NCBI RefSeq assembly: GCF_018139625.1
Contig: NZ_JAGSOH010000011.1
Coordinates: forward strand, 1-64,000
Source of the DNA: Actinospica acidithermotolerans
GTDB lineage: Bacteria; Actinomycetota; Actinomycetes; Streptomycetales; Catenulisporaceae
Reading direction: 5' to 3'
Length of the DNA stretch: 64,000 nucleotides
The notes under the pieces were generated by a model, which searched no databases, was not told where the DNA came from, and was given only the letters and a program-made list of their open reading frames with translations. A program made the translations under genes and the position numbers. Shown piece by piece: positions 38,959 to 59,829 of this stretch (within the stretch, counting starts at the first letter, position 1; each line of letters starts with the position of its first letter).

Positions 38959-38974
38959 CCGTCCTTGAGGACGG
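38959..38974 (-). terminator. Hairpin after alcohol dehydrogenase gene
   Basis: CCGTCCT (38959-38965) and AGGACGG (38968-38974) form a 7-bp stem directly after the dehydrogenase stop at 38977. It would mark the end of the minus-strand biosynthetic run. Confidence 0.45.
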
Positions 38975-38976
38975 GC

Positions 38977-40014
38977 TCAGCCGCCGATCCGGACCACGGC
39001 GCGGCACGAGGTGGCGCCACCCGACCGGAGCCGGGCGAAGCTCTCCGGGAACTGCTCGAGCGAGATGACGTCGCCGAGCAGAAGGTCAGGCTTCTCCTCG
39101 CGCTCGACGACCCCGACCGCCTCCGGGATGGTGTTGCGGATCGTCCTGGACATCTTGATGGTCAGCGCCTTCTTCCTCGCCTCGGAGTGCGAGAGGGAAA
39201 GCGCGTCGTCCTCGGCGATCCCGACGACGATCACCTTTCCGCCGGCGGCGGTGAGCGTCGTGGCGTTGCCCAGGGACGACCTGGCCCCGGCGGCCTCGAA
39301 GTAGAGGTCGACCGGCCCGATGCCGGCGTCCAGCATCTCCCCCGCGATCTTCTCGGCGTTCTTGCCGGATGGGTCCACGACCAGGTCGGCGCCCAGCTTC
39401 AGGGCGACCTCCCGCCGATCGGCTCTCGGCTCCGCCACCACGAGGGGGTGGACGCCGGACTGCTTCAGCAGAAGCACCAGGCACGCGCCGATTCCGCCGC
39501 CGCCGGCGACGAACGCGCTCTGGCCGATGCGCGGCCGGCCGAGGCTCAGGGCGTGCAGGCCGACTGCGAGAGGCTCGACCAGTACGCCTCGAAGCGGCTG
39601 CGACAGCCGCACCGGGTGCAGATGGTCGACCGGGTACTTCACGTAGTCCTGGAGGAAGCCTCCGGCGGCACCGAACCCCGCGAAAATCGAGTGAGGGCAC
39701 AGATTGGGCTTGCCGCTCCGGCAGTACCCGCACTGCCCGCAGGGAATCCCCGGGTTGGCGACGACGAAGTCGCCTACCCGGGCGCGGTCCGACGCGCTGC
39801 CGACGGATATGACCTGGCCGACCATCTCGTGTCCGAGAACCATCGGTTCGGCGACCTTCGGCGTCGCGGCGGTGAAGCCCATGTCGGAGCCGCAGATACC
39901 GCAGTAGAGCACGCGCACCAGCGCCTCGGACGGAGCCAGCTCCTCGTCGAGGAGACCTACCTCGAGCTCGAAGCTGTCCTCACCGAGGTAGTTGACCTGC
40001 CGATTGGGCAACAT
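38977..40014 (-). CDS. Zinc-dependent alcohol dehydrogenase (MDR superfamily)
   Basis: A 345-residue medium-chain dehydrogenase. Catalytic zinc ligands are visible in YCGICGSDMGF and LGHEMVGQV; the structural-zinc region CGQCGYCRSGKPNLC is complete; the Rossmann motif is AFVAGGGGIGACLV. It is of the sorbitol/threonine dehydrogenase kind and should oxidise or reduce a polyol or amino alcohol. The ATG at 40014 follows GGGAGA. It is the last gene of the minus-strand run 38977-48430, but a 308-bp transposon-derived element separates it from the SDR upstream. Confidence 0.88.
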   Translation of the reverse strand: MLPNRQVNYLGEDSFELEVGLLDEELAPSEALVRVLYCGICGSDMGFTAATPKVAEPMVLGHEMVGQVISVGSASDRARVGDFVVANPGIPCGQCGYCRSGKPNLCPHSIFAGFGAAGGFLQDYVKYPVDHLHPVRLSQPLRGVLVEPLAVGLHALSLGRPRIGQSAFVAGGGGIGACLVLLLKQSGVHPLVVAEPRADRREVALKLGADLVVDPSGKNAEKIAGEMLDAGIGPVDLYFEAAGARSSLGNATTLTAAGGKVIVVGIAEDDALSLSHSEARKKALTIKMSRTIRNTIPEAVGVVEREEKPDLLLGDVISLEQFPESFARLRSGGATSCRAVVRIGG

Positions 40015-40036
40015 CGATTCTCCCAGCTGGAGGACT

Positions 40037-40344
40037 GATCGGGTTTCGTTGCGTGGGGGTGGCGAAGCTGTCGAGTCGCGGCGGGTGATCACGAAGGGTG
40101 TGTCCAGGCCGTATAAAGAAGCACGCCTCTGACCTGGACGTTCGCTACCGGCATCGACCTGGGCACCCTTCTGATTGCGCTCTCCGTGGAACTGACCGAC
40201 CGCATCGTGCCTTCGATGGAATCCGCCCCGGACCGCCCCGGGCGCCCGCCGGAGGTCACCGATGCCGACTCGTGTCTTCGTCCACGAGCCATCGGCCCGA
40301 CCAGCACCAGCGACCGCGCCACCCCTAGGCAACGAAACCCGATC
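40037..40344. mobile_element. 308-bp deletion derivative of an IS982-like element (MITE)
   Basis: The 28-bp ends 40037-40064 and 40317-40344 are inverted repeats with two mismatches, beginning GATCGGGTTTCGTTGC. Inside, on the plus strand, a stub reads TGIDLGTLLIALSVELTDRI and RPGRPPEVTDAD, which resembles the first 60 residues of IS982-type transposases; the rest is deleted. It fills almost all of the gap between two operon genes. It could be moved only by a transposase supplied in trans. Confidence 0.75.
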
Positions 40345-40350
40345 AATCGT

Positions 40351-41112
40351 CTAGGCGCTGAGGTAGCCGCCGTCGACCACGAGGGTCGTTCCGGTCATGT
40401 AGTCCGAGGCCGCCGAGACGAGGAACGCCACCGGGCCGACCATGTCCGCCACCGATCCCCACCGCCCGAGCGGAATCCGGGCGAGGAACGGCGCGCTGAG
40501 CGCCTCGTCGGTGATGAGCTGGTCGGTCATCTCCGTGTGGATGTAGCCGGGGGCAACCGCGTTGACGGTGATGCCGAAGGGCCCGAGCTCGGCGGCGAGC
40601 GCCTTCGTCAGACCCGCGACCGCGTGCTTCGAGGCGGTGTAGGCGATGCAGCGCCGGCCGCCCGTGATCGAGGTCAGCGAGGAGATGTTGATGATCTTCG
40701 CGCGCGCGTCGCGGGCCTTGCAGTTCTGCGCCATGAACTGGGCCAGCTTAAAGACGGCACTGGCATTGACATCAAGGACCTGGTTCCAGTCCTCCCAGGA
40801 GTAGTCCCACATCCACTCCCGGAGGTTGATCCCGGCGCAGTTGACGAGCACGTTCGGGCTGCCCCCGAGGGAGTCCTCCGCGAAGCGCCACAGCGCTTGC
40901 AGATCGTCTCGGACGATGCCCTCGAGGTCCATCCGGTACATCTTCGGGCCCGCGACGGTGTAGGTCCCGCTGGGCGCTTCGAGGCGGCTGTGGTACGTCG
41001 CCGCCACGGAGGCGCCCAGCTCGGCCAGGCCCCAGGCCAGTTCGGCGCCGATGCCGGATCCACCGCCGGTGACGATGATCCTGCTCGAGCGGATGTCGAA
41101 CAACTCGCGCAC
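40351..41112 (-). CDS. Short-chain dehydrogenase/reductase (classical)
   Basis: A 253-residue classical SDR: TGGGSGIGAELAWG near residue 15, NCAGINLREW near 90, catalytic YTASKHAVAGL near 155, and PGYIHTEMTDQL. It looks like gluconate/3-oxoacyl-type reductases, so it probably handles a polyol or beta-keto substrate. The start is a GTG at 41112 after AAGGGGG. It lies 12 bp downstream of the radical SAM gene, indicating one operon. Confidence 0.9.
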   Translation of the reverse strand: MRELFDIRSSRIIVTGGGSGIGAELAWGLAELGASVAATYHSRLEAPSGTYTVAGPKMYRMDLEGIVRDDLQALWRFAEDSLGGSPNVLVNCAGINLREWMWDYSWEDWNQVLDVNASAVFKLAQFMAQNCKARDARAKIINISSLTSITGGRRCIAYTASKHAVAGLTKALAAELGPFGITVNAVAPGYIHTEMTDQLITDEALSAPFLARIPLGRWGSVADMVGPVAFLVSAASDYMTGTTLVVDGGYLSA

Positions 41113-41124
41113 GCGCTGCCCCCT

Positions 41125-42132
41125 TCAGGACGTCTGTATCCGTGCGAAGAAATCCTCGGAGCGGATCGCGAAGGATTCGGAGCCGAACCGCTTCAGGTAC
41201 CCGGTGAAGATGTTCTCGACCTCGCTGCCGCTCATGTCCCTGGTCTCGTGCCCGTTCATGTTCGGGACGTTGCAGAAGCTGAGGTATCCCCCGGTCGAGA
41301 GCCGGAGCTGGTACAGGCCCTCCTGGCAGTAGAACGGGCACCCGTCGCACTCCGGCAGGCGCAGCGAGGTCGCGGCGCTCTTGGTGTAGGCGGTGAAGCC
41401 GTCGCGCGGGGACGTGCAGGACTCGATCGCAGCGCCGTACTCCTCGAAGAACCCGAACGTCGAGAACTCACCCCCGAGGTTCGCGGCGACGATGGCCTGG
41501 ACCTCCTTCGGGTCGACGTACTCTGAGAAGAAGTACTCCCGCGAGGCCGACTGATCCCGGTCGTAATAGTAGAGCAGCTCGAGGAACAGGATCTCCGGAA
41601 TCCCGAATGACCGGCATGTCTCGATGGCGAGCGGGATCTCGTCGATCTTCGACCGCACCGCGACCGTGTTGACCCGGATCTTCAGGAACTCCTGCGCCAT
41701 CCGCATGTTGTCCAGGACCTTGGGCAGGCGGTCCAGCCCCGTGCTCTCGGCGAAGCCCTCGCGGGTGAAGGAGGGGAGCGAGATCTTCAGGACGTTGAGT
41801 CCGGCCGAGGCCAGGTCGCGCACAAGGGCCGGACGCATGGTCACGCCGTTGGAGTTGATCTCCGGCACAGCGCCCAGTTCACGCACCTGCTCCACCAGCT
41901 TGGCGATGCCGCGGAAGAGCAGCGGCTCGCCGCCGGTGAACTGGACGTACTCTCCGCCGGTCGCCACGTAGGCCCTGAGCACCTTGAGCAGTTGCTCGCG
42001 CTCGAGGCTGGTGCCGAAGAGGTAATCCGGCTGGAAATTCTCCATCGCCTCCGGGGGACCACCGCAGAACTGGCAATGGAGCTGGCACTTTTCCGTGATC
42101 GATACGCGTAGCTTGGGCAGCCTCTTGATCAT
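41125..42132 (-). CDS. Radical SAM enzyme with C-terminal Cys cluster
   Basis: A 335-residue radical SAM protein. The CxxxCxxC motif binding the SAM [4Fe-4S] cluster is CQLHCQFC at residues 16-23; GGEPLLF follows near 65. The C-terminal region has further cysteines (PECDGCPFYCQEG near 260, SFCNVPN near 285), suggesting an auxiliary Fe-S cluster of SPASM or twitch type. It belongs broadly with MoaA-like enzymes. The ATG at 42132 follows GGGAG. The reaction is unknown; candidates include carbon-skeleton rearrangement, epimerisation or C-C bond formation on the cluster's product. Confidence 0.88.
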   Translation of the reverse strand: MIKRLPKLRVSITEKCQLHCQFCGGPPEAMENFQPDYLFGTSLEREQLLKVLRAYVATGGEYVQFTGGEPLLFRGIAKLVEQVRELGAVPEINSNGVTMRPALVRDLASAGLNVLKISLPSFTREGFAESTGLDRLPKVLDNMRMAQEFLKIRVNTVAVRSKIDEIPLAIETCRSFGIPEILFLELLYYYDRDQSASREYFFSEYVDPKEVQAIVAANLGGEFSTFGFFEEYGAAIESCTSPRDGFTAYTKSAATSLRLPECDGCPFYCQEGLYQLRLSTGGYLSFCNVPNMNGHETRDMSGSEVENIFTGYLKRFGSESFAIRSEDFFARIQTS

Positions 42133-42386
42133 GTCAACGACTCCCTTCTGGTTTCATTGTGAATATGGACTCTAACATGTGGTTCAATGAGTGTCTACCC
42201 TGAATTGCGTAGACTCTGCAAGACGGGATCATCATTCGGGGTTCAGTGGGTTGATTTCTCGCCCGATCCGGTCCATGCATTCTTTTTTCGGGTAGGAGTG
42301 ATCGTTGGGTGGCCGCCCGGCCTGGTTCTCGTGGATTTCCGGTTGTCTCGGCTGGACGTGATCGCGCTGGTCAGTTGGCCGGGCGG

Positions 42387-43811
42387 TCAGGCGAATACAG
42401 GAGTGGCGGCCGTGAGCAGTTTGTCGACCGGCTTTCTCACCAGCGCCAGATCCATTCTGTTGAACGCCGAGGAATACGCCCGGGCCGGTTCGCCAGCGAA
42501 GTAGCGCTCGAACAGGCTCTGCCGCCGGCCGAAGGACGAGCCGGTGAGTTCTCTGGCGATTGCGAACAACTGCACCCGGCTGAGACCTCCGATCGTCGCG
42601 CCTTGAAAATAGTGCTCGATAGTTTCCAGGACCTCTTCCTCCGCGTCCTCGACGGACGGCGTGAGCATCAGGCCGCCCGCTGCGATCTCCTCCAGCATGG
42701 TGAGCGCGGTCGGATAGAAGTCGTTGAAGTAGCGGAGCCCGGCGCTGATGGACCGGGACTGCGGCCGGACGGTGGGTCCGCTCGGCTCCGCGTGCGTGAT
42801 CGCGGTGGTCAGACAGGCCTCGGTGACGTCGAGCCAGGTGCTGATCCGGCCGAGCTTCTCGGTGATGTTCGGATATCCGGTGATCCCGATGGCCTGAGCC
42901 ACCGCCGTGCCGACGGCGAGCAGGAAGCGCCCCTTCACCAGCTGGCGCGTGAGCACCTGCTGTCCGACGTGCTCGAAGAATCCACACTCCGCCTTGAACT
43001 GGTTGCTCTTGTAGGGATCGGAGAAGATGAAGACCCGTTCCCAGGGAATCAGCACCCGGTCGAAGACCGCGACCGCGTCCATCTCATCGAACCGGCGGGC
43101 CAGTTGCCGGTCCGGGCCCGCGTACGAGCCGCGGCAGACGAACGAAAGGCCCTCGGTCCCGACCGGCACCGAGAACCCCAGGCCGAGATCGTAGTCGTCC
43201 TCGCGCAGGATGCGCCCGGCGCCCATCACGAGCAGTTCGTCGGCGAGCGGGGCCGACGTCGCCATCATCCGGGCACCGCTCACCCGCACGCCGTTCGAGT
43301 TCTCCCCGATGTACTGCAGTGCGATGGGACGCTCGCGGGTGACGAGGTCGCCCAACTCGCGGGAGCGGTCCGTCTGCGGGTTGGTGAAGCTGTGCGTGAC
43401 GAACAGGTTGCCGGACTTCACGTGCTCGTGGAACCTACGGACGTTGTCTGCGTATTCTCCGAACCAGTCGCTGTGCGCGTTCATCGCTGCCACCCACGTG
43501 TGCAGGTAGTCAGGACTTCGTCCGAGAAATCCGTAGGTGGCTTCCGCCAGAATCTCGTACGCACGGCCCCGTGCGCTCAGCGCGGCAGCGTCGACGGGTG
43601 GACGGAAGGCCGCGGGATAGCGCGTCGCCCCATCGTCGTACGCCAACTGCCCGGCCAGGTCCTCGCGCAGTTGCAGGTCGTACAGGGCACCGATCTCCAG
43701 CGCATTGCCCCGAAGGTGCTCGGAGCCGAGAACCCGGTCGACCAGCCGGCCGTTCAGCCAGATCCTCCGGTCGTCGTCGATGGCCGCGAAGTAGTCACGC
43801 GAATTCCTCAA
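42387..43811 (-). CDS. HpaB-family flavin-dependent monooxygenase
   Basis: A 474-residue enzyme of the 4-hydroxyphenylacetate 3-monooxygenase (HpaB) family, which uses free FADH2 to hydroxylate phenols or, in natural-product pathways, amines and carrier-bound aromatics. Recognisable pieces are the N-terminal SRDYFAAIDDDRRIWLNGRL, HSFTNPQTDRS (contacting flavin or substrate), RVLIPWERVFIF and the C-terminal RYFNDFYPTALTMLEEIA. The start is a TTG at 43811 with GGAGG just upstream. No flavin reductase (HpaC) is encoded nearby. It is separated from the radical SAM gene by 254 bp, so that gene may have its own promoter. Confidence 0.87.
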   Translation of the reverse strand: MRNSRDYFAAIDDDRRIWLNGRLVDRVLGSEHLRGNALEIGALYDLQLREDLAGQLAYDDGATRYPAAFRPPVDAAALSARGRAYEILAEATYGFLGRSPDYLHTWVAAMNAHSDWFGEYADNVRRFHEHVKSGNLFVTHSFTNPQTDRSRELGDLVTRERPIALQYIGENSNGVRVSGARMMATSAPLADELLVMGAGRILREDDYDLGLGFSVPVGTEGLSFVCRGSYAGPDRQLARRFDEMDAVAVFDRVLIPWERVFIFSDPYKSNQFKAECGFFEHVGQQVLTRQLVKGRFLLAVGTAVAQAIGITGYPNITEKLGRISTWLDVTEACLTTAITHAEPSGPTVRPQSRSISAGLRYFNDFYPTALTMLEEIAAGGLMLTPSVEDAEEEVLETIEHYFQGATIGGLSRVQLFAIARELTGSSFGRRQSLFERYFAGEPARAYSSAFNRMDLALVRKPVDKLLTAATPVFA

Positions 43812-43855
43812 TGCTCCTCCGTTCCGTCCTCAGCGGACAGGCTGATATGTGCGCG

Positions 43856-44575
43856 TCACAGCACTCGCCACCCGCTCGTCGCGTCGACATCGTCGCGAAT
43901 GCCGAGGAGCCCGGCCAGATCGTCGCCGAAGAACGGCGCCAGCAGATCGGTCCGGCTCAGGAAAGGCCGGCCGCCCAGCGTTCCGAAGAGCAGGTCCCAG
44001 AGGAAGATCGCCGTCCCCTCCGTGACGGGCGCGTAGTCGGCGACGATCTGGGAGACGACCTGTGCCTGGGGGCATGCGGTCTTTACGAAGTTGATCGCCT
44101 CTCTCGTGGCGAGAACCGTCCTGACCGACACCGGGCCACGCCAGGACGCGGGCGGCAGGGAGGAGAGGACTGACACCGCCGTCTTGCCCGAGAACATGAT
44201 GTCGTCGAGCACTGTGAGCGGCCCGCCGGCGAGCGGCAGAACCTGAAGGTCTTCCTCAACCTCCACGGCGGCCGTCTCGCCGTGGGTACCGTGTCTTCGC
44301 TTCGGATGAACGGCGATGACCGCGCAGTCGCGACTCGCGTGCGCGAAACGCGCCGCGAGGATCCGCGGGCGCGTGCCGACGACCAGCGCGGTGGCGCAGG
44401 CGCCGTGGGCGGTGGCTTCCCAGAGGCTCCGGAATCCGGCGAAGTCGATGTAGCTCACCTGTGCCGGAGCCGTTCGCGTGAGGCTGTCTATGCGGTGGCG
44501 GAGCGACCTCTCCATGCCCGCCATGTCGTCGCAGACGCCGAACAGCGGAAGGTCGTCGATGAGGTGCAGCTTCAT
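43856..44575 (-). CDS. Phosphoribosyltransferase-fold protein
   Basis: A 239-residue protein. LTVLDDIMFSGKTAVSVLSS near residue 130 matches the PRPP-binding loop of type-I phosphoribosyltransferases (hydrophobics, two acidics, then small residues), and ATALVVGTRPRILAARFAHA would be an earlier strand. The remainder is not recognisable. It could transfer phosphoribose, or be a PRT-fold enzyme recruited to another reaction. The ATG at 44575 overlaps the cupin stop (ATGA), so the two are translationally coupled. Confidence 0.65.
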   Translation of the reverse strand: MKLHLIDDLPLFGVCDDMAGMERSLRHRIDSLTRTAPAQVSYIDFAGFRSLWEATAHGACATALVVGTRPRILAARFAHASRDCAVIAVHPKRRHGTHGETAAVEVEEDLQVLPLAGGPLTVLDDIMFSGKTAVSVLSSLPPASWRGPVSVRTVLATREAINFVKTACPQAQVVSQIVADYAPVTEGTAIFLWDLLFGTLGGRPFLSRTDLLAPFFGDDLAGLLGIRDDVDATSGWRVL

Positions 44576-44925
44576 CGCGGCGCCTCGATGTCGAAGGCCT
44601 CGACCAGCACGATCCGATCCGTCTGGAGGAGGGACTGCGGCCAGTGCCAGTGCCGCAGTTCCAGCGCGTCCCTTTGGCACCGGAAGGCGTGTTCGCAGTT
44701 GGGCGACATGATGAACAGGTCGCCTGGATTGAGTTCCACCGCCTGCCCGGCCAGCGAGGCCAGGCCGGTGCCCGCCGCCACGAAGGTGATCTGTCCCATG
44801 ATCCGGTGCACGACGAGGGGATGCGGGCTGTCGGTCGTCAGCACCTGGGGCGGCTCGCCCAATGCGTCCAACATCGCGGTCAGGACGGGTCGCATCTCAT
44901 CGCTGACCTTCAGTGCTTGAAACAT
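44572..44925 (-). CDS. Cupin-domain protein
   Basis: A 117-residue single-domain cupin. The beta-barrel core reads VVHRIMGQITFVAAGTGLAS, AVELNPGDLFIMSPNCEHAF and ELRHWHWPQ. Several His residues could bind a metal. Small cupins act as isomerases, epimerases, dioxygenases or binding proteins; which applies here is unclear. The ATG at 44925 is 3 bp after the SDR stop, and the stop overlaps the PRT-fold gene. Confidence 0.75.
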   Translation of the reverse strand: MFQALKVSDEMRPVLTAMLDALGEPPQVLTTDSPHPLVVHRIMGQITFVAAGTGLASLAGQAVELNPGDLFIMSPNCEHAFRCQRDALELRHWHWPQSLLQTDRIVLVEAFDIEAPR

Positions 44926-44928
44926 GCT

Positions 44929-45666
44929 CTATCCCATCGTCAGGGTTCCGCAGACGTTGATGGCCTGGCCGTTGACCGCGCGCCCGGCCAGGGCGAGCCA
45001 GCGGATGACGTCGGCGACCTCGTCGGGCTCCAACAGGCGCCCGAGCCCGGTCCGACGGGCCATCGCGGCCTGGTATTCATCCGGACGCAGACCGTGCAGC
45101 CGCGAGATCTCGCGGCGCCCGTCGTCCGCCCCGGCGGTGTCCACCGCCCCCGGGCACACGCAGTTCGCCCGCACCCCGAACGGACCGACCTCCGCGGCCA
45201 GACTCTGGGTGTAGGCGATCAGACCGGCGTTCGCGGCGCTATAGGCGGGCAGGTAGGCGACGCCCGGTTTCGCAGCGGTTGACGACACGTTCACGATGGA
45301 GCCCTGACCTGCCGCGCGCATCGGCTCGACGACGACGCGCGTGAGCATCATCGGAGCGACGAGGTTCAACGTGAGGTCGTGCTGGATGTGGTCGGGCGTG
45401 ATCGCGATGGCCGTCGCTGGCTGGGCTCCCCCGGCGTTGTTGACCAGCACCTCCGGCGTGACCCCGCGCGACGTCAGGTACTCGGCCAGCTCCTGGCACG
45501 CGGCCGCCACCGTCGACCCCTCGGCGAGGTCCGCCTTGATGAACATCGCGCAGTGCTGAGGCCGGGTCAACCCGAGCACGATGCAGTCGTGGCTGTCGGA
45601 GAATCGGCGCAGCACCGCCGCGCCGATCCCGCGAGAGGCCCCTGTGATGATCGCTGTCGGCCTCAT
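44929..45666 (-). CDS. SDR-family oxidoreductase with Asn in place of catalytic Lys
   Basis: A 245-residue SDR: TGASRGIGAAVLRRF at the N-terminus, NNAGGAQPA near 90, Ser in VNVSSTAAK, and the active-site Tyr in LPAYSAANAGLIAYTQ. The YxxxK Lys is Asn (Y-S-A-A-N), so proton relay and cofactor orientation should be altered. It may be a catalytically changed SDR (dehydratase, cyclase or binding role) or inactive. The C-terminus (RAVNGQAINVCGTLTMG) is normal. The ATG at 45666 lies 3 bp after the ThDP enzyme stop, in the same operon. Confidence 0.87.
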   Translation of the reverse strand: MRPTAIITGASRGIGAAVLRRFSDSHDCIVLGLTRPQHCAMFIKADLAEGSTVAAACQELAEYLTSRGVTPEVLVNNAGGAQPATAIAITPDHIQHDLTLNLVAPMMLTRVVVEPMRAAGQGSIVNVSSTAAKPGVAYLPAYSAANAGLIAYTQSLAAEVGPFGVRANCVCPGAVDTAGADDGRREISRLHGLRPDEYQAAMARRTGLGRLLEPDEVADVIRWLALAGRAVNGQAINVCGTLTMG

Positions 45667-45669
45667 GCG

Positions 45670-47379
45670 TCAGTCTTCGATCCAGCCGCGCAGGCATGCC
45701 GGCACCTCGTCCGGATGACAGAGCACCTCTACGCCGACCGTTCCGCGCGTCGCCAGCGCGGCCGCCAGCACCTCGTCGACCTGGTCGGCGTGGTCGATAC
45801 GGAAGGTGCGAAGCCCCATCGCGCTCATCCACTGGGCGAAGTCGATGCTGGGGATGTCGGTTCCCATGGGTTCGCGATCGAAGTCCAACCGCTGGCCGAG
45901 GCGGACGCGGCCGTGGCTGCGGTTGTTGAAGACGACGACGAGGAGGTTGAGTTCGTGCTCGGCGGCGACGGTCAGTTCGGCGCCGTGCATGAGCATGGAG
46001 CCGTCCCCGGTGACGCAGACTGTGAGCGGCCCTCGCCCTGCGGCGCCTTCCTGACCGGCCGCCATGGCCATGCCGACCGACGCGCCGATCGCCCAGCCCA
46101 TGGCGCCCACGCCGCAGTTGAGCTGTACTCCACCGGTTCGGCCGGCGCGGCACAGCGAGATCGTGTCGAGCCAGTGGTTGCCGGCGTCCGGGATGACCAC
46201 GGCGTCCGGAGGCAGCATCCGGCTCAGCCGGGAAATCGTGCCGGCCACGGACGGCATCCCGTGCGACTCGGGCTTCTGACGCAGCGCTGCTCGCTCGGCG
46301 CGCTTCTGGAAGGCCGACACAAGCTCGGCTGCGGAGCAATCCGGCTCTGCGGCGGTGTCGGTACCGCCTGCGGCTATGGCCGACGTCAGCGCCGACACGG
46401 CTTCCCGCGCGTCTCCGACGATGCCGATATCGGCCCGCATCCGGAAGCCGACCTGCTCGGCGGAGATGTCGATGCGAATCGTCGCGGCGTTCTCGAGGAC
46501 CGCTGCCAGCGGGTTCGCGTAGTAGCGCGACAGGCTGGCGCCGACGACAAGGACGACGTCCGGCTGGTAGGACGACACCGCTTGGGCGATGTCAGACCGT
46601 TGACCCGGACCGAAGTGGCCGAGCAGCATGGGGTGATCGCGAGGCAGGCAGGACACTGCCTTCGTCGACGTCACGACGACCGCTCCCAACTGCGTGGACA
46701 GTCGAGCGATCTCCGGTTGCGCGCGGGCGAGCATGCTGCCCCAGCCGGCGAGAATCAGCGGGCGGCGCGCTGAGCGAAGCAGTTCCGCCGCAGCGAGGAC
46801 GCATGGCGCGGCCGGCACGTCGCCGACGGTCGGCGGGGAGGCCGACCGCGACGGCGGAACCGGGATGTCGAGCTGCTGCTGGTCCAGGGGGATGCTCAGG
46901 TGCACGGGGCCCCGGCGTCCGCTGAGCGCCAACGTGATCGCGGTGTCGATCATGAACGCGGCGTTCTCCGGGGCGACGATCTCCAGCGCGGTCTTGGTGA
47001 TGGGCGCGAGCAGGGCGGCCGGGGAGGCCGATCGGTCCAGCAGGAAAGACTCCTGGAACACTCCGCGGCCGAAGGTCGTGGGCGAGCCCTGGCCCGAGAT
47101 GACCAGCATGGGCACGGAATCCTGATAGGCCGATGCCACGCCGGTCGCCGTATTGGTGACGCCGGGGCCGGACGTCGTCAGGACGACGCCGAGGTTTCCG
47201 GTCGCACGGGCGTAACCGTCGGCCATGAACGCGGCGCCGCCCTCGTGGCGGGCCAGGATGATCTGGGGATCTTTCCGGAACGCGTGCCATACCGGCATCA
47301 CGAAGTAGCCCGGCACGCCGAAGGCCCGGGTCACCCCCGCAGCGGCCAATTGCTGGTGCAGATAGCCCGTCAATATCAC
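45670..47379 (-). CDS. ThDP-dependent enzyme, acetolactate synthase-like
   Basis: A 569-residue three-domain thiamine diphosphate enzyme. The activating Glu is in ARHEGGAAFMADGYARATG near residue 45; TSGPGVTNTATGVA follows; the ThDP-Mg motif runs from VTGDGSMLMHG to VVFNNRSHG near 430-460. It fits the acetolactate synthase/carboxyethylarginine synthase/benzaldehyde lyase group and could decarboxylate a 2-oxo acid and join the acyl anion to another carbonyl, building the product's carbon skeleton. The start is a GTG at 47379, 4 bp after the aminotransferase stop. No small regulatory subunit is present, which argues against branched-chain amino acid synthesis. Confidence 0.88.
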   Translation of the reverse strand: MILTGYLHQQLAAAGVTRAFGVPGYFVMPVWHAFRKDPQIILARHEGGAAFMADGYARATGNLGVVLTTSGPGVTNTATGVASAYQDSVPMLVISGQGSPTTFGRGVFQESFLLDRSASPAALLAPITKTALEIVAPENAAFMIDTAITLALSGRRGPVHLSIPLDQQQLDIPVPPSRSASPPTVGDVPAAPCVLAAAELLRSARRPLILAGWGSMLARAQPEIARLSTQLGAVVVTSTKAVSCLPRDHPMLLGHFGPGQRSDIAQAVSSYQPDVVLVVGASLSRYYANPLAAVLENAATIRIDISAEQVGFRMRADIGIVGDAREAVSALTSAIAAGGTDTAAEPDCSAAELVSAFQKRAERAALRQKPESHGMPSVAGTISRLSRMLPPDAVVIPDAGNHWLDTISLCRAGRTGGVQLNCGVGAMGWAIGASVGMAMAAGQEGAAGRGPLTVCVTGDGSMLMHGAELTVAAEHELNLLVVVFNNRSHGRVRLGQRLDFDREPMGTDIPSIDFAQWMSAMGLRTFRIDHADQVDEVLAAALATRGTVGVEVLCHPDEVPACLRGWIED

Positions 47380-47383
47380 GTGC

Positions 47384-48430: not shown

Positions 48431-48480
48431 GGACACCACGCGGTGCAGTCTCGCGGTATCCGATCGCTGGTCGTCATCAT
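48418..48480 (-). CDS. Possible 20-residue leader peptide overlapping the aminotransferase start
   Basis: GGAGGA at 48485-48490 is well placed for an ATG at 48480, which opens a 20-codon frame (MMTTSDRIPRDCTAWCPCRS) ending at a TAG at 48418, 13 bp past the aminotransferase ATG at 48430. The aminotransferase start itself lacks a good ribosome binding site, so it may depend on reinitiation. This could be chance. Confidence 0.3.
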   Translation of the reverse strand: MMTTSDRIPRDCTAWCPCRS

Positions 48481-48484
48481 CCAA

Positions 48485-53010: not shown

Positions 53011-53853
53011 GTGGCCACCCGCATGGCAGTTCAGGCCGCGGACCGCGGAATCCTCTCCCCCGAAATCCTTCGCACGCGGCCGCGGGGCGTGCGGGCCACG
53101 CATGGGGCGCCGCGGGGCCCGGAGCACTGTGCGGCGGGCAAGGAGGCTCGGCACCCGCCGGGGACCGTCGATGCCCTGCCGGGCGATTCGGTCCGGTGCC
53201 CGACCGCCTCGCTGACCAGCCTCCGGCTACCGCACAAGCTCACGCTGGAGCGATGGATCGGCATCGGGCGAGACCTGTCGACGACGACCAGTTCCGCAGC
53301 CTGGTGGTTGGGCGACTGGCTGATCTACGGGGAAGCGGCCTTCACCGGCCGGTACCGGAACGCGATCGAGCAGACCTCGCTCGACTACAAGACGCTGCGC
53401 AACTACGCCTGGGTCGCGCGCAGGTTCCCGCCGGACCGCCGGCACGAGACGCTCAGCTTCGGCCACCACGCCGAGGTCGCCGCGCTGGCGGCACCCGAGC
53501 AGGACTTCTGGCTGCGCAAGGCGGCGACGCTGTCCTGGTCGCGCAATAAACTCCGGCGCATCGTCCGGGAGAGCCTGCGCGAGCGAGAGGAGTCACCGAT
53601 TGCCCGGCACCGCGACGGGGCGCCGCACGCGATCGCGCCCGGCCGCCTGCCGCCGCTCCCCCACGAGGCGGACGACCCCCCGCCGGCCGAACGGCTGAGC
53701 GTGCGGTTGACGCACCAGCAACTCGCCGCCATCCGCCAGGCCGCCGACTGCGCCCAGGTGCCGGTCGACACCTGGGCCGCCAGGATCCTGCTGAAGGAGG
53801 CCGCGCGCAGCGCCGTCGGGAAAGGCGGTGACCGGGAGCGGCCCGACGCATAG
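53011..53853 (+). CDS. LmbU-family transcriptional regulator
   Basis: A 280-residue regulator. The central part (residues about 70-190) has the LmbU pattern: LRLPHKLTLERWIGIGRDL, AAWWLGDWLIYGEAAF, YKTLRNYAWVARRF, LSFGHHAEVAALAAPEQDFW and WSRNKLRRIVRESL. LmbU-type proteins are cluster-situated activators of antibiotic pathways (lincomycin, hormaomycin, others). The C-terminus (RLSVRLTHQQLAAIRQAADC) looks like a short ribbon-helix-type segment. I chose the GTG at 53011, 8 bp after AGGAG; the frame is open upstream to 52900. It is probably the master activator of the surrounding cluster. Confidence 0.88.
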   Translation: MATRMAVQAADRGILSPEILRTRPRGVRATHGAPRGPEHCAAGKEARHPPGTVDALPGDSVRCPTASLTSLRLPHKLTLERWIGIGRDLSTTTSSAAWWLGDWLIYGEAAFTGRYRNAIEQTSLDYKTLRNYAWVARRFPPDRRHETLSFGHHAEVAALAAPEQDFWLRKAATLSWSRNKLRRIVRESLREREESPIARHRDGAPHAIAPGRLPPLPHEADDPPPAERLSVRLTHQQLAAIRQAADCAQVPVDTWAARILLKEAARSAVGKGGDRERPDA

Positions 53854-53869
53854 GGCTGATGTACGCCGC

Positions 53870-53900
53870 GGGGCGTTTCGGCGGCAGCCGGGAACGCCCC
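53870..53900. terminator. Hairpin between convergent regulator and UGP genes
   Basis: GGGGCGTT (53870-53877) pairs with AACGCCCC (53893-53900) across a 15-nt GC-rich loop, in the 47-bp gap between two convergent genes. It is likely a bidirectional terminator. Confidence 0.6.
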
Positions 53901-54947
53901 TCAGTGCGTTCCGTGCAGATCCTCCAGGGCGGTGCGCAGGACCGCCTCGTGCCTGACCATCTCAGCGCGCGTCTTCAGCGGCAGGAAGCGCCGCTCCGAA
54001 ACGCCCAGGAAGGCGGCCGGGAGCAGGGTCGCCAGGTGGTGCAGCGGACACTCGATCTGCACCGCCACCCGCCCCTCGACGTCCTTCTCGTAATAGCGCC
54101 ACGGCAAGGGCAGATCGTCGTCGGTGACGTCGGTGTCGAGGATGAACGTGTTCGTGTTGAGCGGCAACGGCGGGAGCAGTTCCGCGCGCCCGCCGAGTTC
54201 CGCGGCGTCCAGCAGCAGCGGACGGCCGTCGAGCCGCACCACCCGCGCGCCGGAGCTCGCCGGGTTGGGCGGACGGACCACTTCCACGCTCACCCTGCGC
54301 CCCCGGAGCAGGTGGCTGCCGACGACCAGCGGATCCGGCCGGGCCAGCAGGTTGTCGAGATTCGAGATCAGCAGGTGGCGTACGCCGGACCCGCGCAGCC
54401 GGTCCAGCACACCGGACCGGACCAGCGCCCCCGGCAGTTCGCCGTGCCCGGTGGGATACGGCGAGACCTCCCCGTCGCCGGTCCGGAACACCTCGCCGTC
54501 CGGGGTCAGCCGGAGTGCGAAACCCTGCTGGAACAGAAAGGGTTCGGGCAGTCCGAGTTCGGCCACGTGCGCACGGATCGGTTCGTGCGTCGCCCACCCG
54601 GTCATCACGGCGACCGGCACCGCGCCGCCGTACCGGTCGGCGGCGGCTTGCGCTTGTCGAAGCTTGATCTCAAGGAACGTCTGACCGTCGAGCACCGGGA
54701 CCGTGGCCTTGACCGCGCCGCCGAAGCGTGTCGCCATCCCCCCGCCGAGCACGACCACCGCGACCTCGCCGCGGCTCAGGGCCGCGGTGCCGGCCGCTTC
54801 GGCGGCCGCGTGCTCCGCCGAGCCCGGCGGCGGCAGGTCGACGACGTCCTCCGGCTCCGGGGGCGCCAACGCGCCGAGCACCACGTTGGCCGCCGCCGAA
54901 AGCCGTCCGCGGGCAACCGCTTCACTGAAGTCCTCTGCCACGTTCAC
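53901..54947 (-). CDS. UTP-glucose-1-phosphate uridylyltransferase-like protein
   Basis: A 348-residue nucleotidyltransferase of the eukaryotic-type UGPase/UDP-sugar pyrophosphorylase group. VVLGGGMATRFGGAVKATVP near residue 60 is the nucleotide-binding loop; LLISNLDNLLARPDP near 170 matches the UGPase NLDN motif; NTNTFILD lies near 260. It should make UDP-glucose or a related UDP-sugar, the usual donor for the GT8 enzyme encoded in the same run. The start is a GTG at 54947 overlapping the ThDP enzyme stop (GTGA), so they are translationally coupled. This is not the bacterial GalU family. Confidence 0.8.
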   Translation of the reverse strand: MNVAEDFSEAVARGRLSAAANVVLGALAPPEPEDVVDLPPPGSAEHAAAEAAGTAALSRGEVAVVVLGGGMATRFGGAVKATVPVLDGQTFLEIKLRQAQAAADRYGGAVPVAVMTGWATHEPIRAHVAELGLPEPFLFQQGFALRLTPDGEVFRTGDGEVSPYPTGHGELPGALVRSGVLDRLRGSGVRHLLISNLDNLLARPDPLVVGSHLLRGRRVSVEVVRPPNPASSGARVVRLDGRPLLLDAAELGGRAELLPPLPLNTNTFILDTDVTDDDLPLPWRYYEKDVEGRVAVQIECPLHHLATLLPAAFLGVSERRFLPLKTRAEMVRHEAVLRTALEDLHGTH

Positions 54948-56470
54948 GGTCGCACCGTGCTCTGCACCATGGCCACCGCCGGCAGCGGGCCGTCGAGCAG
55001 GGTCCGGAGACGGTCCGCGCCCTGCTCGCCCTGCTCGTCGACGTGCCAGGCGTCGCACACCGCGATGCCGCAGGCCCGGATCAGCCCGGCCAGGTCGACC
55101 GCGGGCAGTGGCTGCCCGCCGGTCTTGGCCTGCACCCCGTTCACGAGCACCACGCTCAGCAGCGGCAGACCGTGCTCGGCGGCGGACACGAGCCCGCCGA
55201 GCCCGCTGTGCACGACCGCGTAGTCGCCGATCACCGCGATGGACCGGCGGCCCGCGCGAGCCGCCCCGCCCGCCACCGCGATGGCCGAGCCGAGACTCAG
55301 CGCGACGTCCACCGCGTCGTACGGCGGGTAGCACAGCCTGATCGAGGAACCCACATCGGCCGCCACGAACGCGCCGCCGCGATGCAGTTCCGCGATGGCG
55401 TGGAAGACCTGCTCGTACGGGCCGAGTGGCGGGACCACGGCGGACTTGCGCTCGATATCCGTCCACGAGCAGGTCTGATCGGTCTCGATCACCTTCAACA
55501 GGTCGGCCCTGGTGACCGTCCCCCACAACGGCAGATGGCCGGTGAGCCGACCGCGCAGCCGGCCCGGATCGGCCATCCGGCCGGCCAGCCACTGCTCGGC
55601 CACCGGGTCCGGCTCCTCGACCACGATCGTGCGGTCGTGCGCCTCCGCCCACGCCACCACGGAGGCGGGCAGCGGAACCGTCGCTTCGACCGCGAGCACG
55701 CAGCAGTTCATCTCGACGGCGGTGATCGCGGTTCCGCCGACGGCGATCACCGCCGTCCGGCAGTCCCCGCCGCAACGGTCGAGGATCAGACCGGCCCGGT
55801 CGACGAAGGAGCGGATCAGCGGCGCGGTGACCAAAAAGCGGCGTTGATGGCGGCCGAATTTCGTCAGCTTGTGCGCCACGTCCGGGTCGAGGCGAGGAGC
55901 CGGCGAACGGGTCGGCACCCTGATCGGCGAGGCGGGAGCAGCTTCGGGCCGAGCGCTGCAGTCCCGGTGCAGCGTCGGGGTGATCCGGATCAGCACCGGC
56001 ACCCCAGCCTGCTCGGAGAGTTCGACGGCGCTCTCAACCAGGTGATCCGCATCGCCGAGCAACGTCGGTTCCAGCACCGGCACCCCGGCTATCTCGGCCA
56101 ACCGCCGCGAGTCCTGCACCGACGTCGAGCCGTTGGCGTCCGGGTCGTCGCCCACCACGAGCAGCACGGCGGCACCGGTCGAGTGCACCGTGGCGTTCAG
56201 CAGCGAGTCCAGCGCGATGTTCAGGCCGTTGTGCTTGAACACCACGGCGGAGCGCACGCCCGCGGCGGACAGGCCGACGGCCTCCTCGACGGCGGACTTC
56301 TCGTTGACCGCCCACTCGAAGCGCTCCGCGCCGTGCTCGGCCAGAATCTCGGCGACGTGCGTGCTCGGCGCACCCGCTACCGCCGAGGTGCGATCGATGT
56401 GCCGGAGCAGCGCCTGCGCCAGATGCCGGCAAGCCTGCGCGTCCGGGGTCTTCGCCCGATCGTCGGACAT
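54944..56470 (-). CDS. IorA-like ThDP enzyme lacking the ferredoxin domain
   Basis: A 508-residue thiamine diphosphate enzyme. The N-terminal half matches the alpha subunit of indolepyruvate ferredoxin oxidoreductase: FEWAVNEKSAVEEAVGLSAA, VVFKHNGLNIALDSLLNA and TSVQDSRRLAEIAGVPVLEP. The ThDP-binding half has AVIGDYAVVHSGLGGL and VVLVNGVQAKTGGQPLP. IorA normally ends in a two-cluster ferredoxin domain and pairs with IorB; here the protein stops after the ThDP domain and no IorB is nearby. A non-redox decarboxylase role, as in phosphonopyruvate decarboxylases, is more likely. The ATG at 56470 follows GAAGGTGAGGA. Confidence 0.8.
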   Translation of the reverse strand: MSDDRAKTPDAQACRHLAQALLRHIDRTSAVAGAPSTHVAEILAEHGAERFEWAVNEKSAVEEAVGLSAAGVRSAVVFKHNGLNIALDSLLNATVHSTGAAVLLVVGDDPDANGSTSVQDSRRLAEIAGVPVLEPTLLGDADHLVESAVELSEQAGVPVLIRITPTLHRDCSARPEAAPASPIRVPTRSPAPRLDPDVAHKLTKFGRHQRRFLVTAPLIRSFVDRAGLILDRCGGDCRTAVIAVGGTAITAVEMNCCVLAVEATVPLPASVVAWAEAHDRTIVVEEPDPVAEQWLAGRMADPGRLRGRLTGHLPLWGTVTRADLLKVIETDQTCSWTDIERKSAVVPPLGPYEQVFHAIAELHRGGAFVAADVGSSIRLCYPPYDAVDVALSLGSAIAVAGGAARAGRRSIAVIGDYAVVHSGLGGLVSAAEHGLPLLSVVLVNGVQAKTGGQPLPAVDLAGLIRACGIAVCDAWHVDEQGEQGADRLRTLLDGPLPAVAMVQSTVRP

Positions 56471-56538
56471 GATCCTCACCTTCTTGCCACCGGCGCGCCG
56501 GTGCACAGGATGAATGCGCGGTCGATGAAGCAGCGGTG

Positions 56539-56552
56539 TCCCGCCGGCGGGA
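56539..56552. promoter_or_regulatory. TCCCGCCGGCGGGA palindrome upstream of the IorA-like gene
   Basis: An exact second copy of the 14-bp core found at 52634-52647, here in a 17-bp identity (GTGTCCCGCCGGCGGGA, 56536-56552). It lies in the 105-bp gap between the GT2 and IorA-like genes, about 70 bp upstream of the latter. It is a probable binding site for the LmbU-type regulator and suggests an internal promoter for the IorA-like and UGP genes. Confidence 0.65.
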
Positions 56553-56575
56553 AAGTCGCGAAGTCGGGGCCCGGT

Positions 56576-57838
56576 TCACCCGCGCCGGCGGATCTCGGTG
56601 ACGAAGACGTGAGGCGTTCCCGGCAGGGTCCGGGCGTCCAAGAACGAGTTCTCCAGGATGCAGCCCAGATCGGCCGGCTGGGCGATCGGCGAAGCCGGCT
56701 CGGATTCGCGGGTGCCTGCCAGGTAGACGGTCGGTGCGAGCCGCAGACCCTCGACGATGAGCGCGGACAGGTCGCCCGGCGTGAGGATCCGCCAGTTGTC
56801 CCAGTGGACCACGTCGCCGAAACTGTCGTCGTCGAACAGGGTGCTGATGCCGATCAGCGGCCGGTTCGTCGCCGAGCGGGGCTGCGTGCAGTCCAGAGTG
56901 GCGGCGGGCGTGCTGGACAGTTGATCGCCCAGCCGCCCGGCCCAGAGCCGGTCGGCGTTGCCCGGCAGGATGTCCTGGAGGTCCTTCAACGCCGCGTCCG
57001 ACCCTCCCCCCGGCCGCAGCAGGTACCGCGCGTATTGCGGCTGAGACTGCACCGAAAGGCGGTTGCCGCTGCGGAGCCTCTCGATGTCGAAGTGCTGGTG
57101 CTTGTGTTCGAAATACGTGAGCCCTTCCGCCGCGCCAGCCCAGTTCTTGACGGAATTGAGGAAATGCGGGACGTGGCACACGGTAGCCTCCGGAACAAAG
57201 AGGAAACGTTGTCCGTCTCGCTGCCAGTGTGTGTAGACGCGGTAGCCGAACTCCGTGTCCTCGTATCCCCAGTTGCGGAAGTTCTCGTCGAACCCGCCGA
57301 CGTCCTCGTATACGCGGCGCGGGAGCGAGAAGTTATGCGAGATCGTGAACAGCCAGGGCGAAGCCTCCAGCAGTCCCGGCTGTTCGAGCCCGTAGTAATA
57401 TCGGAGGTCGTCCTGTTCGCGGCTGACGTCCCAGGGGGTGGCGTCGGCGTCGGCCACCCCGTGCAGGGTGGCCCAGTCCGGCTCGATCCGCCGGCCAAGT
57501 ACCAGCAGATCGTGCGACGTGTGCCGCTTCAGATGAACGCTCACCAGGTCCGGGTGGGCGATCGAGTCGGCGTCCAGAAACAGCAGGAGTTCGCCGGAGG
57601 CGGCGGCGACGGCAGTGTTGCGGGCCGCGGATCGGCCGCGGTTCTCCTCGTGCCGCACCACCCGCACCGCCAGATCGGGGTACTCCCCCGCCACGTCCCG
57701 CCCGACCGGCTCGGGGCTCGCGTCGTCGGCGATGACGACCTCGAAGGCATCGGAAGGCGCGGTCTGACCGGCGAGGGACTTCAGGGTCCGCGCCAGCGCT
57801 TCGGGCTGCGCGTAGGCCGGAATGATGATCGACAGCAT
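56576..57838 (-). CDS. Glycosyltransferase family 2 protein
   Basis: A 420-residue GT-A-fold glycosyltransferase: MLSIIIPAYAQPEALARTLK start, VIADDASPEPV near 35, metal-binding LLFLDADSIAHPDL near 90, and the C-terminal acceptor/base region GGFDENFRNWGYEDTEFGYR near 200. A C-terminal extension of about 160 residues (from ADRLWAGRLGDQL) is not part of the usual domain and includes HWDNWRILTPGDLSALIVEG. It is cytoplasmic, with no membrane helices. The ATG at 57838 follows GAGAGGA. It lies downstream of the GT8 gene. The donor sugar is unknown. Confidence 0.87.
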   Translation of the reverse strand: MLSIIIPAYAQPEALARTLKSLAGQTAPSDAFEVVIADDASPEPVGRDVAGEYPDLAVRVVRHEENRGRSAARNTAVAAASGELLLFLDADSIAHPDLVSVHLKRHTSHDLLVLGRRIEPDWATLHGVADADATPWDVSREQDDLRYYYGLEQPGLLEASPWLFTISHNFSLPRRVYEDVGGFDENFRNWGYEDTEFGYRVYTHWQRDGQRFLFVPEATVCHVPHFLNSVKNWAGAAEGLTYFEHKHQHFDIERLRSGNRLSVQSQPQYARYLLRPGGGSDAALKDLQDILPGNADRLWAGRLGDQLSSTPAATLDCTQPRSATNRPLIGISTLFDDDSFGDVVHWDNWRILTPGDLSALIVEGLRLAPTVYLAGTRESEPASPIAQPADLGCILENSFLDARTLPGTPHVFVTEIRRRG

Positions 57839-57898
57839 GAGCAGTCCTCTCCCCTTCGCCCGGCGTCCGCCGCGTTGCCTCGAGCGCCCGCGAACCGG

Positions 57899-58765
57899 TC
57901 AGGCGACCGGATCGAAGACGGCGGGCTGGAAGCGGCGATACAGGTCGCGCATCTCAGAAGCCGGATAGTCGTCGTTCCAGGGCTTCAGGCGACCGCCGAA
58001 GTGGATGATGGCGGCGTCCTTCTCGGCCTCGACCAGTTCGGCGAGTGGATTGACGTCCTCGGCCGGGTGGACGTAGTCGGGTCCGCGCGGGGACATCGCG
58101 AAGGTGTCCCAGCGGTACTCGAGCCGCTGCCAGTCGTCTGCGGCGGCGTAGTTGAGCGCGTCCTGGTCGGGGAAGCCGACCTTGTCGGGGTTGGCGATCA
58201 GGAACTCGGCCGCTCGCTCGAACAGGCGGGTACCGCGGATCCGGGGGAGGTCGAGCAGCATGACGGCGCTGCAGAAGTACTCGCGGCCCTCGGGGAGGCC
58301 GAACTCCCGCCAGAAGCGCAGTCCGGGACCGTGCCCGAGCAGCGGGCTGATCGGGTCGCGGACGGCGCCGACAGGGTGCCCGCCGAGGTCGCGCTCGAGC
58401 AGCGGCCGCAAGTCCGCGAGCACCAGCGTGTCGGCGTCCATGTACAGCACCCGCGGCTCGTCCTCGATCACGTCGGGGATGGTCATCCGCGCGAACACGG
58501 CCCTGCTGTACCAGGCCGTGACCGGCAGGTTCGAATCGGTTTCGGGGATCGCGCGGATCTCGACCGCCAGGCCGAGGGCCGCGCCGTCGCGCAGGATCGA
58601 CGCCGTACTCCCGGACGAGAGCCCCTGGTCCAGGACGATGAACCGCAGTTCCCCGACCGCCGGACCGTGTGCCGCCGCGATGGACCGCATCACGGTGCGC
58701 AGTGGCTCGACATAGCCGTCGTCGATCGCGCAGACAATCGGAGCCAAACCTGTTGCCACGTTCAT
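57899..58765 (-). CDS. Glycosyltransferase family 8 protein
   Basis: A 288-residue GT8 (glycogenin/LgtC-like) retaining transferase: IVCAIDDGYVEPLRTVMRSI start, DxD metal motif VLYMDADTLVLADL near 97, YFCSAVMLLDL near 160, FPDQDALNYAA near 195 and the C-terminal IIHFGGRLKPW. GT8 enzymes use UDP-glucose or UDP-galactose, which fits the UGPase-like gene in the same run. I chose the ATG at 58765; in-frame starts at 58783 and 58792 are also possible, and no strong ribosome binding site decides between them. Confidence 0.85.
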   Translation of the reverse strand: MNVATGLAPIVCAIDDGYVEPLRTVMRSIAAAHGPAVGELRFIVLDQGLSSGSTASILRDGAALGLAVEIRAIPETDSNLPVTAWYSRAVFARMTIPDVIEDEPRVLYMDADTLVLADLRPLLERDLGGHPVGAVRDPISPLLGHGPGLRFWREFGLPEGREYFCSAVMLLDLPRIRGTRLFERAAEFLIANPDKVGFPDQDALNYAAADDWQRLEYRWDTFAMSPRGPDYVHPAEDVNPLAELVEAEKDAAIIHFGGRLKPWNDDYPASEMRDLYRRFQPAVFDPVA

Positions 58766-59045
58766 ACGTACCCCAACAAGCATTTGAGTCACGGGAACGG
58801 CCCGTCGAATATGAGCGCGACAGATAGTCGGGAAAGTGTTTCTCGAAGAATCCGAGACGAACTTTCACGCCGGCCGGTAAATGGCTGTCCTTCCCTCCCC
58901 GTTCATCGTCGCACTGCGAGAATACTGAGCGGCCGCAATGACGTCCAGCAATGTGGCGTGGCAGTGGACTGTCGTCGGCACTTCTGATGTGATGAAGTGC
59001 GCGCGCTCTCTTCAATCAGGGCCCTCGGCAGACGTGCCGCCGGAG

Positions 59046-59759
59046 TCAGCCGGTCAGCGCGTCCGGGAGTTCGTCGAGGGAGTGGATGACCCGGATGCCG
59101 TCGCGCACGTCGTGCCCGTAGCTGGCGAATCCGCGGTCCAACCAGAACGCGTGCAGTCCCGCATCGCTGGCTCCCTCGGCGTCGAGGCTGTACTTGTCGC
59201 CGACATAGGCGACCTCGTCCGGTGCGAGGCCGAGTGACGCGCAGCCGGCGAGGAAGATGCTCGGTGCGGGCTTGCTCGCGCCGTGCTGGTCGGCGCAGAC
59301 GACTGCGTCGCCGACGTATTGAAGCAGGCCGATAGCCTGGAGCTTGTGCCGCTGATGGTCGACCGACGCGTTGGAGACGACGCCGAGCCGGTAGTCGGGT
59401 GCCAGCCTCCTGAGGACCGGCTCGGCATCGGGAAAGGCGGCCCAGGCCGCGTTGCGGTGGATTTCGTAGCCGGCGAACCACGCGGAGGCCTCCCGATCCG
59501 ACAGGCCGCGGTAGCCGAGGTGCGAAAGGAACTCCCGGGTGCGTTCACGCTGCTGCCCGGTGAGGGTCTGCTCGCCGTTGAGGTATCGGGCGAAGTGCAC
59601 CTCCATGATGGCGCGCCAGAGCCGGACCGCGGTGGCGGCGTCGGGGAACCGATCGACCAGTTGCTGCGCCCGCAGGTGGGTGAGCAGACCGGCCTGGTCC
59701 GATGCCGAGTAGTCGAACAGAGTGTCGTCTACGTCGAAGAGCACACCTTTGATCGGCAC
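59046..59759 (-). CDS. HAD-superfamily phosphatase
   Basis: A 237-residue HAD hydrolase with a helical cap: motif I VLFDVDDTLFDYS near residue 8 (nucleophile Asp), motif II VVSNAS near 125, motif III Lys in GASKPAPSIF near 163 and motif IV YVGDKYSLDAEGA near 185. It probably removes phosphate from a sugar or pathway intermediate. The GTG at 59759 follows GGGGAGG. It is the first gene of the minus-strand run that continues with GT8, GT2, IorA-like and UGPase-like genes, after a 280-bp gap. Confidence 0.88.
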   Translation of the reverse strand: MPIKGVLFDVDDTLFDYSASDQAGLLTHLRAQQLVDRFPDAATAVRLWRAIMEVHFARYLNGEQTLTGQQRERTREFLSHLGYRGLSDREASAWFAGYEIHRNAAWAAFPDAEPVLRRLAPDYRLGVVSNASVDHQRHKLQAIGLLQYVGDAVVCADQHGASKPAPSIFLAGCASLGLAPDEVAYVGDKYSLDAEGASDAGLHAFWLDRGFASYGHDVRDGIRVIHSLDELPDALTG

Positions 59760-59829
59760 GACGCCTCCCCTTCCGACGCCCGGAGCATGAGTCGGCTCCC
59801 CTTGATCGTGAGCATGCCGCTATGTCCGT

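Follow-up and report, generated by a model that had tools for sequence, protein, structure and literature searches.

Enzymes of the HpaB, IorA-clade thiamine diphosphate (ThDP) and HisC-like aminotransferase families are linked to aryl-pyruvates. The described systems closest to the genes considered here are HpaB of T. thermophilus, a 4-hydroxyphenylacetate 3-hydroxylase (PDB 2yyg), the ThDP enzymes BbmA and CsmA (8x3x, 8x3z), IorA, the alpha subunit of indolepyruvate:ferredoxin oxidoreductase, MoaA, the GTP 3',8-cyclase (1tv7), and LmbU of the lincomycin cluster. Relatives of these proteins are encoded side by side in an accessory island of Actinospica acidithermotolerans, located in the first 64 kb (the window analysed here) of a 95.7-kb contig of the 7.9-Mb genome. 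With a probability of about one half, we read the island as a strain-specific natural-product cluster of ~21 kb with a ThDP-built scaffold, for which a route from an aryl-pyruvate is proposed. That it constitutes a natural-product cluster of some kind is considerably more certain than either this route or a sugar/nucleoside route. Genes were called by GC content at third codon positions (GC3) and then scanned against Pfam and NCBIfam; all features are collected in Table 1.

Borders and rarity of the island

The borders follow from synteny with relatives. On the left, at 38,280, a block of LysR, epimerase and short-chain dehydrogenase/reductase (SDR) genes ends that is 80–84% identical in sister-genus genomes of the same family. 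On the right, at 59,867 and 107 bp past the HAD phosphatase gene, homology to both congeneric genomes resumes, with a block of glycoside hydrolase family 3 and solute-binding-protein genes that is ~73–80% conserved in both of them, one being a single-contig genome. In the stretches fetched from relatives no DNA match to the interior was found between the two borders, and at the protein level there was generic SDR and ABC similarity only. As the homology of the relatives stops at both borders with no DNA match between them, the island is real, and these breakpoints provide independent evidence for the cluster limits of 38977 and 59759 that an earlier note on this DNA had proposed. By its tetranucleotide composition the island does not stand out as foreign, and no Rfam element was found across the window. 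Since the left flank resembles the sister genus and the right flank the own genus, the island may be composite in origin.

The LysR/epimerase/SDR block itself (35264–38280) finds only weak matches in the own genus, as compared to the high identity in the sister genus, a distribution that suggests its horizontal transfer. Transposase genes (DDE_Tnp_4, Mu-type C-terminal domain, IstB) are situated at 31668–34913, also left of the island.

How rare is this gene set? The genome samples searched were partial, those of order and phylum overlapping, and the searches therefore speak to rarity and not to uniqueness. For the radical S-adenosylmethionine (SAM) enzyme no relative with E <1e-25 was found among 394 genomes of the order and 140 of the phylum and none with E <1e-30 in the family, and a single-protein scan of genome contigs yielded no match. 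Among class genomes, no relative of the IorA-like protein with E <1e-40 (346 genomes), no homologue of the phosphoribosyltransferase (PRT)-like protein with E <1e-6 (395 genomes) and no relative of the acetolactate synthase (ALS)-like protein with E <1e-75 (326 genomes) was detected. HpaB has four distant relatives with E <1e-60 in 346 class genomes, and the HpaB neighbourhoods of four actinomycete genomes have only ABC transporters or a fragmentary alcohol dehydrogenase (ADH) match in common with the island. In an alignment scan the best identity was ~36% among at least 462 confirmed HpaB relatives; the best 80 of these at least 462 loci contain no recognisable radical SAM, PRT-like, IorA-like or UDPGP gene of the island kind and share with the cluster only generic SDR, ADH, ABC, ALS, aminotransferase and GT2 similarity. 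Plasmid searches gave distant matches only. The best GT8 relative (46%, in two pieces) resides on a Pseudonocardia plasmid whose genes are otherwise unrelated. For the aminotransferase, the best relative (38%) adjoins a pyridoxal phosphate (PLP) decarboxylase and a major facilitator superfamily (MFS) transporter. The cluster of ~21 kb is real, bounded, apparently intact and an orphan within the genomes searched.

Enzymes of run 1

The first of two minus-strand runs comprises, in this order, an aminotransferase, the ALS-like enzyme, SDR1, a cupin, the PRT-like protein, HpaB, the radical SAM enzyme, SDR2 and a Zn-dependent ADH. From the aminotransferase to the PRT-like gene the five genes are spaced by 4, 3, 3 and −4 nt, followed by 44 nt to HpaB, 254 nt to the radical SAM gene and 12 nt to SDR2. 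Pfam and NCBIfam scans together with a motif check, in which nearly all island enzymes had intact catalytic motifs, recovered every enzyme class the earlier note had named, each in its place. Its statement that the cluster has no polyketide synthase (PKS), nonribosomal peptide synthetase (NRPS) or ribosomally synthesized and post-translationally modified peptide (RiPP) core also held: no ketosynthase, condensation, adenylation or carrier Pfam domain was found among the island genes, and no convincing RiPP precursor in the island.

The HisC-like aminotransferase scores 225 bits against NCBIfam hisC, below the cutoff of 276.6, and carries the motif NPHNPTG and the lysine region TFSKIHGLAGLRCGY. 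In the ALS-like protein the glutamate motif HEGGAAFMADGYAR and the ThDP motif GDG...NN are both intact, and with 291 bits against TIGR00118 (cutoff 538) it is not a biosynthetic acetolactate synthase by this model. Its best PDB matches over residues 7–560 are BbmA (274 bits, distant) and CsmA (187 bits), with ALS isozyme 1 at 168 bits; by these scores BbmA stands closer to it than does any acetolactate synthase with a solved structure, and no function is transferred. SDR1 keeps the NAD-binding motifs TGASRGIG and NNAG, and YSAAN (YxxxN) replaces YxxxK. Since the catalytic lysine is missing, SDR1 is perhaps not an ordinary reductase. In the cupin, motif 2, GDLFIMSPNCEH, is retained, but motif 1 is without the canonical HxH. 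Where the earlier note had seen a PRT-fold protein, a gene with a phosphoribosyl pyrophosphate (PRPP)-loop-like motif is indeed present, and the fold is putative, as this is a single motif and no family match was found in Pfam, NCBIfam or PHROG; a single-sequence fold prediction was of low confidence (pLDDT 36). All other parts can be assigned to known superfamilies, and the combination of the whole set is unusual.

HpaB is of the FADH2-dependent monooxygenase type, with HpaB_N and HpaB domains and the active-site Arg, Tyr and His. It aligns over its full length with the T. thermophilus enzyme (E 7e-78), R98, Y102 and H140 corresponding to R100, Y104 and H142, a trio which we take to be the catalytic set of that enzyme. 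In contrast to the latter, the island protein is divergent, no flavin reductase gene is found in the island, and the gene context is natural-product-like. With 310.9 bits against TIGR02309 (cutoff 480.2) it is not a member of the HpaB-1 equivalog (4-hydroxyphenylacetate 3-monooxygenase). As is generally known, HpaB, SDR, ADH, ALS and aminotransferase proteins are found in degradation and primary metabolism too, and one could imagine a catabolic or housekeeping set in place of a natural-product cluster. Such a set is highly improbable, however, as the island contains no ring-cleavage dioxygenase, CoA ligase or uptake system but a regulator and dual exporters, as close relatives do without it, and as each core protein tested is highly divergent.

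The radical SAM enzyme has the marks of its superfamily (CX3CX2C at residue 16, GGE and the PF04055 domain) and, like MoaA, a second C-terminal cysteine cluster (CX2C...C at 262–287) followed by the LRLSxxGxLxxC signature of the MoaA-type region. It differs from MoaA by extra residues between the auxiliary cysteines and does not reach the MoaA equivalog (102.9 bits against TIGR02666, cutoff 284), and a MoaA role is not expected. SDR2 has an intact YTASK motif and scores 222 bits against NCBIfam kduD (cutoff 339). In the Zn-ADH the catalytic and the structural zinc motifs are both present; by the GC3 profile it likely starts with an ATG at ~40,014, the mechanically listed open reading frame (ORF) extending too far upstream.

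These last genes bear on a different route, in which the PRT-like protein, the MoaA-like radical SAM enzyme, the polyol dehydrogenases, the HAD phosphatase and the UDPGP protein would build an unusual nucleoside or aminosugar, a ThDP enzyme would add a two-carbon branch, and HpaB would hydroxylate an attached aryl unit. The PRPP-loop-like motif, the MoaA-like auxiliary cluster region, the best matches of SDR2 and ADH to KduD/IolM-type proteins, the cytosylglucuronate decarboxylase BlsE as weak structural neighbour of the radical SAM enzyme, and pyrimidine nucleotidases among the best matches of the HAD protein would all be consistent with such chemistry. We consider it unlikely, given that the PRT assignment consists of one motif with no family match and that neither a DegT-type sugar aminotransferase nor an NDP-sugar dehydratase is encoded in the island. 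Because its enzymes are better identified, the aryl-pyruvate route is preferred.

Two wider gaps occur in run 1. The gap of ~336 bp between SDR2 and ADH is filled by a miniature inverted-repeat transposable element (MITE)-like insertion of 316 bp beside the SDR2 stop codon and would measure ~20 bp without it. The arms of this element are 91% complementary, one partial copy (114 bp at 75%) exists elsewhere in the genome, and part of its interior may resemble the start of a transposase. Upstream of the radical SAM gene lies a gap of 254 bp (42133–42386), single-copy in the genome and with ~54% GC unlike its surroundings. Short ORFs in this gap, examined as possible RiPP precursors, were dismissed because of their codon composition, their GC3 being ~0.5 (0.78 in one of 18 residues) as compared to 0.91 for the radical SAM gene.

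Exporters, regulator and run 2

Between the runs, on the plus strand, two overlapping ABC half-exporters with intact Walker A, LSGGQ and Walker B motifs precede a regulator of the LmbU family. The regulator passes the family model (207.3 bits against NF038070, cutoff 125), and its neighbours, unlike those of LmbU in the lincomycin cluster, are unrelated to lincosamide biosynthesis. Its start is placed by the GC3 profile at 53023 or 53191, giving ~64 extra N-terminal residues in the first case and almost none in the second, and an N-terminal auto-inhibitory domain is typical of LmbU-family members from antibiotic clusters (PMC6510168). The earlier note had taken LmbU-type regulators and paired exporters as marks of antibiotic clusters. 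Both are present, but LmbU-family regulators occur outside antibiotic clusters too (PMC6510168), so that the presence of one is suggestive and not diagnostic. The reported LmbU site is CGCCGGCG (PMC6510168), and a perfect palindrome of 26 bp with this sequence at its centre, a candidate operator, is situated between the exporter and LmbU genes, upstream of the latter. It is the longest perfect palindrome of the window, and none as long occurred in 30 simulated windows. Alternatively, it could be the stem of a transcription terminator, although no T-run follows it.

Run 2, again on the minus strand, consists of the HAD phosphatase, GT8, GT2, IorA-like and UDPGP genes. The HAD protein has the nucleophile motif DVDDT, and the GT8 enzyme its DxD. 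The IorA-like protein resembles IorA in its N-terminal and catalytic ThDP domains (195 bits against TIGR03336, cutoff 651, with model positions 20–474 of 595 covered), including the PYR-domain glutamate in NEKSAVE and the metal site GDY...VN. Unlike IorA it lacks the C-terminal 4Fe-4S ferredoxin domain with its CxxCxxC cysteines, and no IorB-like partner gene was found among the island genes. The UDPGP protein carries GGGMATRFGG and resembles the plant UDP-glucose pyrophosphorylase 2icx (6e-16); its listed ORF is too long, and the GC3 profile places its start at a GTG at ~54,947, with a 4-nt overlap with the IorA-like stop codon. The GT2 enzyme scores 145 bits against NF041875 (cutoff 370). 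A second small cluster just past the window (contig positions 71.8–77.5 kb) encodes a fusion of GT2 and PIG-L deacetylase, an MFS transporter, an FMO-like oxygenase and a radical SAM protein; its GT2 has 31% identity with the GT2 of the window and the same best family (EpsD).

It could be imagined that only run 1, the exporters and LmbU form an antibiotic-type unit and that run 2 is a neighbouring surface-glycan or unrelated module. The regulator/exporter block does separate the two runs, the unlike flanks would fit a composite island, and the GT2 best match is an exopolysaccharide enzyme. On the other hand, run 2 has no polymerase, flippase or polyprenyl-phosphate transferase, a ThDP enzyme would be unusual as a glycan gene, and a single pair of synteny breakpoints encloses both runs. 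Two separate units are doubtful, even somewhat more so than the sugar/nucleoside route.

Table 1. Features of the accessory island, in order of position
Feature	Coordinates	Strand	Evidence
Accessory island	38281..59866		synteny with relatives
Zn-dependent medium-chain (MDR) alcohol/polyol dehydrogenase	38977..40014 (approx.)	-	PF08240 (ADH_N) 1.6e-25, PF00107
MITE-like insertion	40033..40348		32-nt terminal inverted repeats
SDR2, KduD-like polyol/ketosugar dehydrogenase	40351..41112	-	PF13561 3.8e-50
MoaA-like radical SAM enzyme	41125..42132	-	PF04055 1.7e-18
HpaB-type FADH2-dependent phenol hydroxylase	42387..43811	-	PF11794 2.1e-61, PF03241 2.2e-40
PRT-like protein, no known family	43859..44575	-	PRPP-loop-like motif VLDDIMFSGKT only
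Single-domain cupin	44572..44925	-	PF07883 8.9e-7
SDR1, atypical	44929..45666	-	PF00106 6.8e-34
ALS-like ThDP carboligase/decarboxylase	45670..47379	-	PF02776/PF00205/PF02775 (N, M, C domains), 1.5e-36 to 5.7e-26
PLP aminotransferase, fold type I, HisC-like	47384..48484	-	Aminotran_1_2 PF00155 9e-45
ABC half-exporter 1	48810..50783	+	PF00005 1.2e-27
ABC half-exporter 2	50780..52543	+	PF00005 2.6e-26
26-bp perfect palindrome, candidate LmbU operator	52628..52653		position and sequence
LmbU-family transcriptional regulator	53023..53853	+	NF038070 1.5e-61
UDPGP-family sugar-1-phosphate nucleotidyltransferase	53901..54947 (approx.)	-	PF01704 2.2e-25
IorA-like ThDP enzyme without ferredoxin domain	54944..56506	-	TIGR03336
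GT2 glycosyltransferase, EpsD/MftF-like	56576..57838	-	PF00535 7.4e-27
GT8 retaining glycosyltransferase	57899..58792	-	PF01501 1.2e-28
HAD-family phosphatase	59046..59759	-	PF00702 6.4e-25

A proposed route from aryl-pyruvates

How could these enzymes act together? What is observed are the enzyme families with their motifs, the order of the genes and the limits of the island; substrates, step order, product and the service of both runs in a single pathway are what we infer. The HisC-like aminotransferase would convert an aromatic amino acid to the corresponding 2-keto acid and back, or aminate the acyloin formed next. The BbmA/ALS-like ThDP enzyme would decarboxylate a 2-keto acid and couple its acyl unit to another carbonyl, yielding an adduct that SDR1, the cupin and the PRT-like protein might remodel or activate. 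HpaB could then hydroxylate a phenol in ortho position, with reduced flavin supplied in trans, and the MoaA-like radical SAM enzyme might bring about a C-H functionalisation or rearrangement, before SDR2 and the Zn-ADH would set the oxidation level. From run 2, the HAD and UDPGP proteins would make a UDP-sugar and the GT8 and GT2 enzymes attach it, while the IorA-like protein, having neither a ferredoxin domain nor an IorB in the island, may decarboxylate aryl-pyruvates non-oxidatively or act on them as a carboligase. LmbU would activate the cluster, and the product would be exported by the ABC pair.

Three hints point to aryl-pyruvates, namely the phenol-hydroxylase active site of HpaB, the IorA-clade ThDP enzyme and the HisC-like aminotransferase, and the compact same-strand spacing with overlaps, from the aminotransferase via ALS-like, SDR1 and cupin to the PRT-like gene and again from the IorA-like to the UDPGP gene, speaks for the proposed route. 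Other points weigh against it. The HpaB, IorA-clade and HisC-like families each accept other substrates; the polyol-like SDR2 and ADH together with the PRT-like gene, suggestive of nucleotide chemistry, seem to fit the sugar/nucleoside route equally; no relative of the gene set was found in the genomes searched; and CGCCGGCG is not enriched in the window, 18 occurrences being found as compared to 15 expected, a count that proves nothing.

The earlier note had known of no described pathway with this combination, and none was matched in open-access papers or in the family and PDB libraries, a scope that leaves aside subscription papers and MIBiG. Tentatively, and with less confidence than the route itself, one may think of a new scaffold class, in which a PRT-like enzyme together with two aryl-pyruvate-type ThDP enzymes would assemble a small molecule, followed by tailoring by a MoaA-like radical SAM enzyme and glycosylation, with no assembly-line or ribosomal core. 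Core-less clusters are easily missed by finders keyed to PKS, NRPS and RiPP signatures. The island is rare, sharply bounded and rich in enzymes with unpredictable reactions, among them the MoaA-like radical SAM enzyme, the PRT-like protein, the lysine-less SDR and the ferredoxin-less IorA-like protein, and it constitutes a compact target for a new compound and new enzymology.

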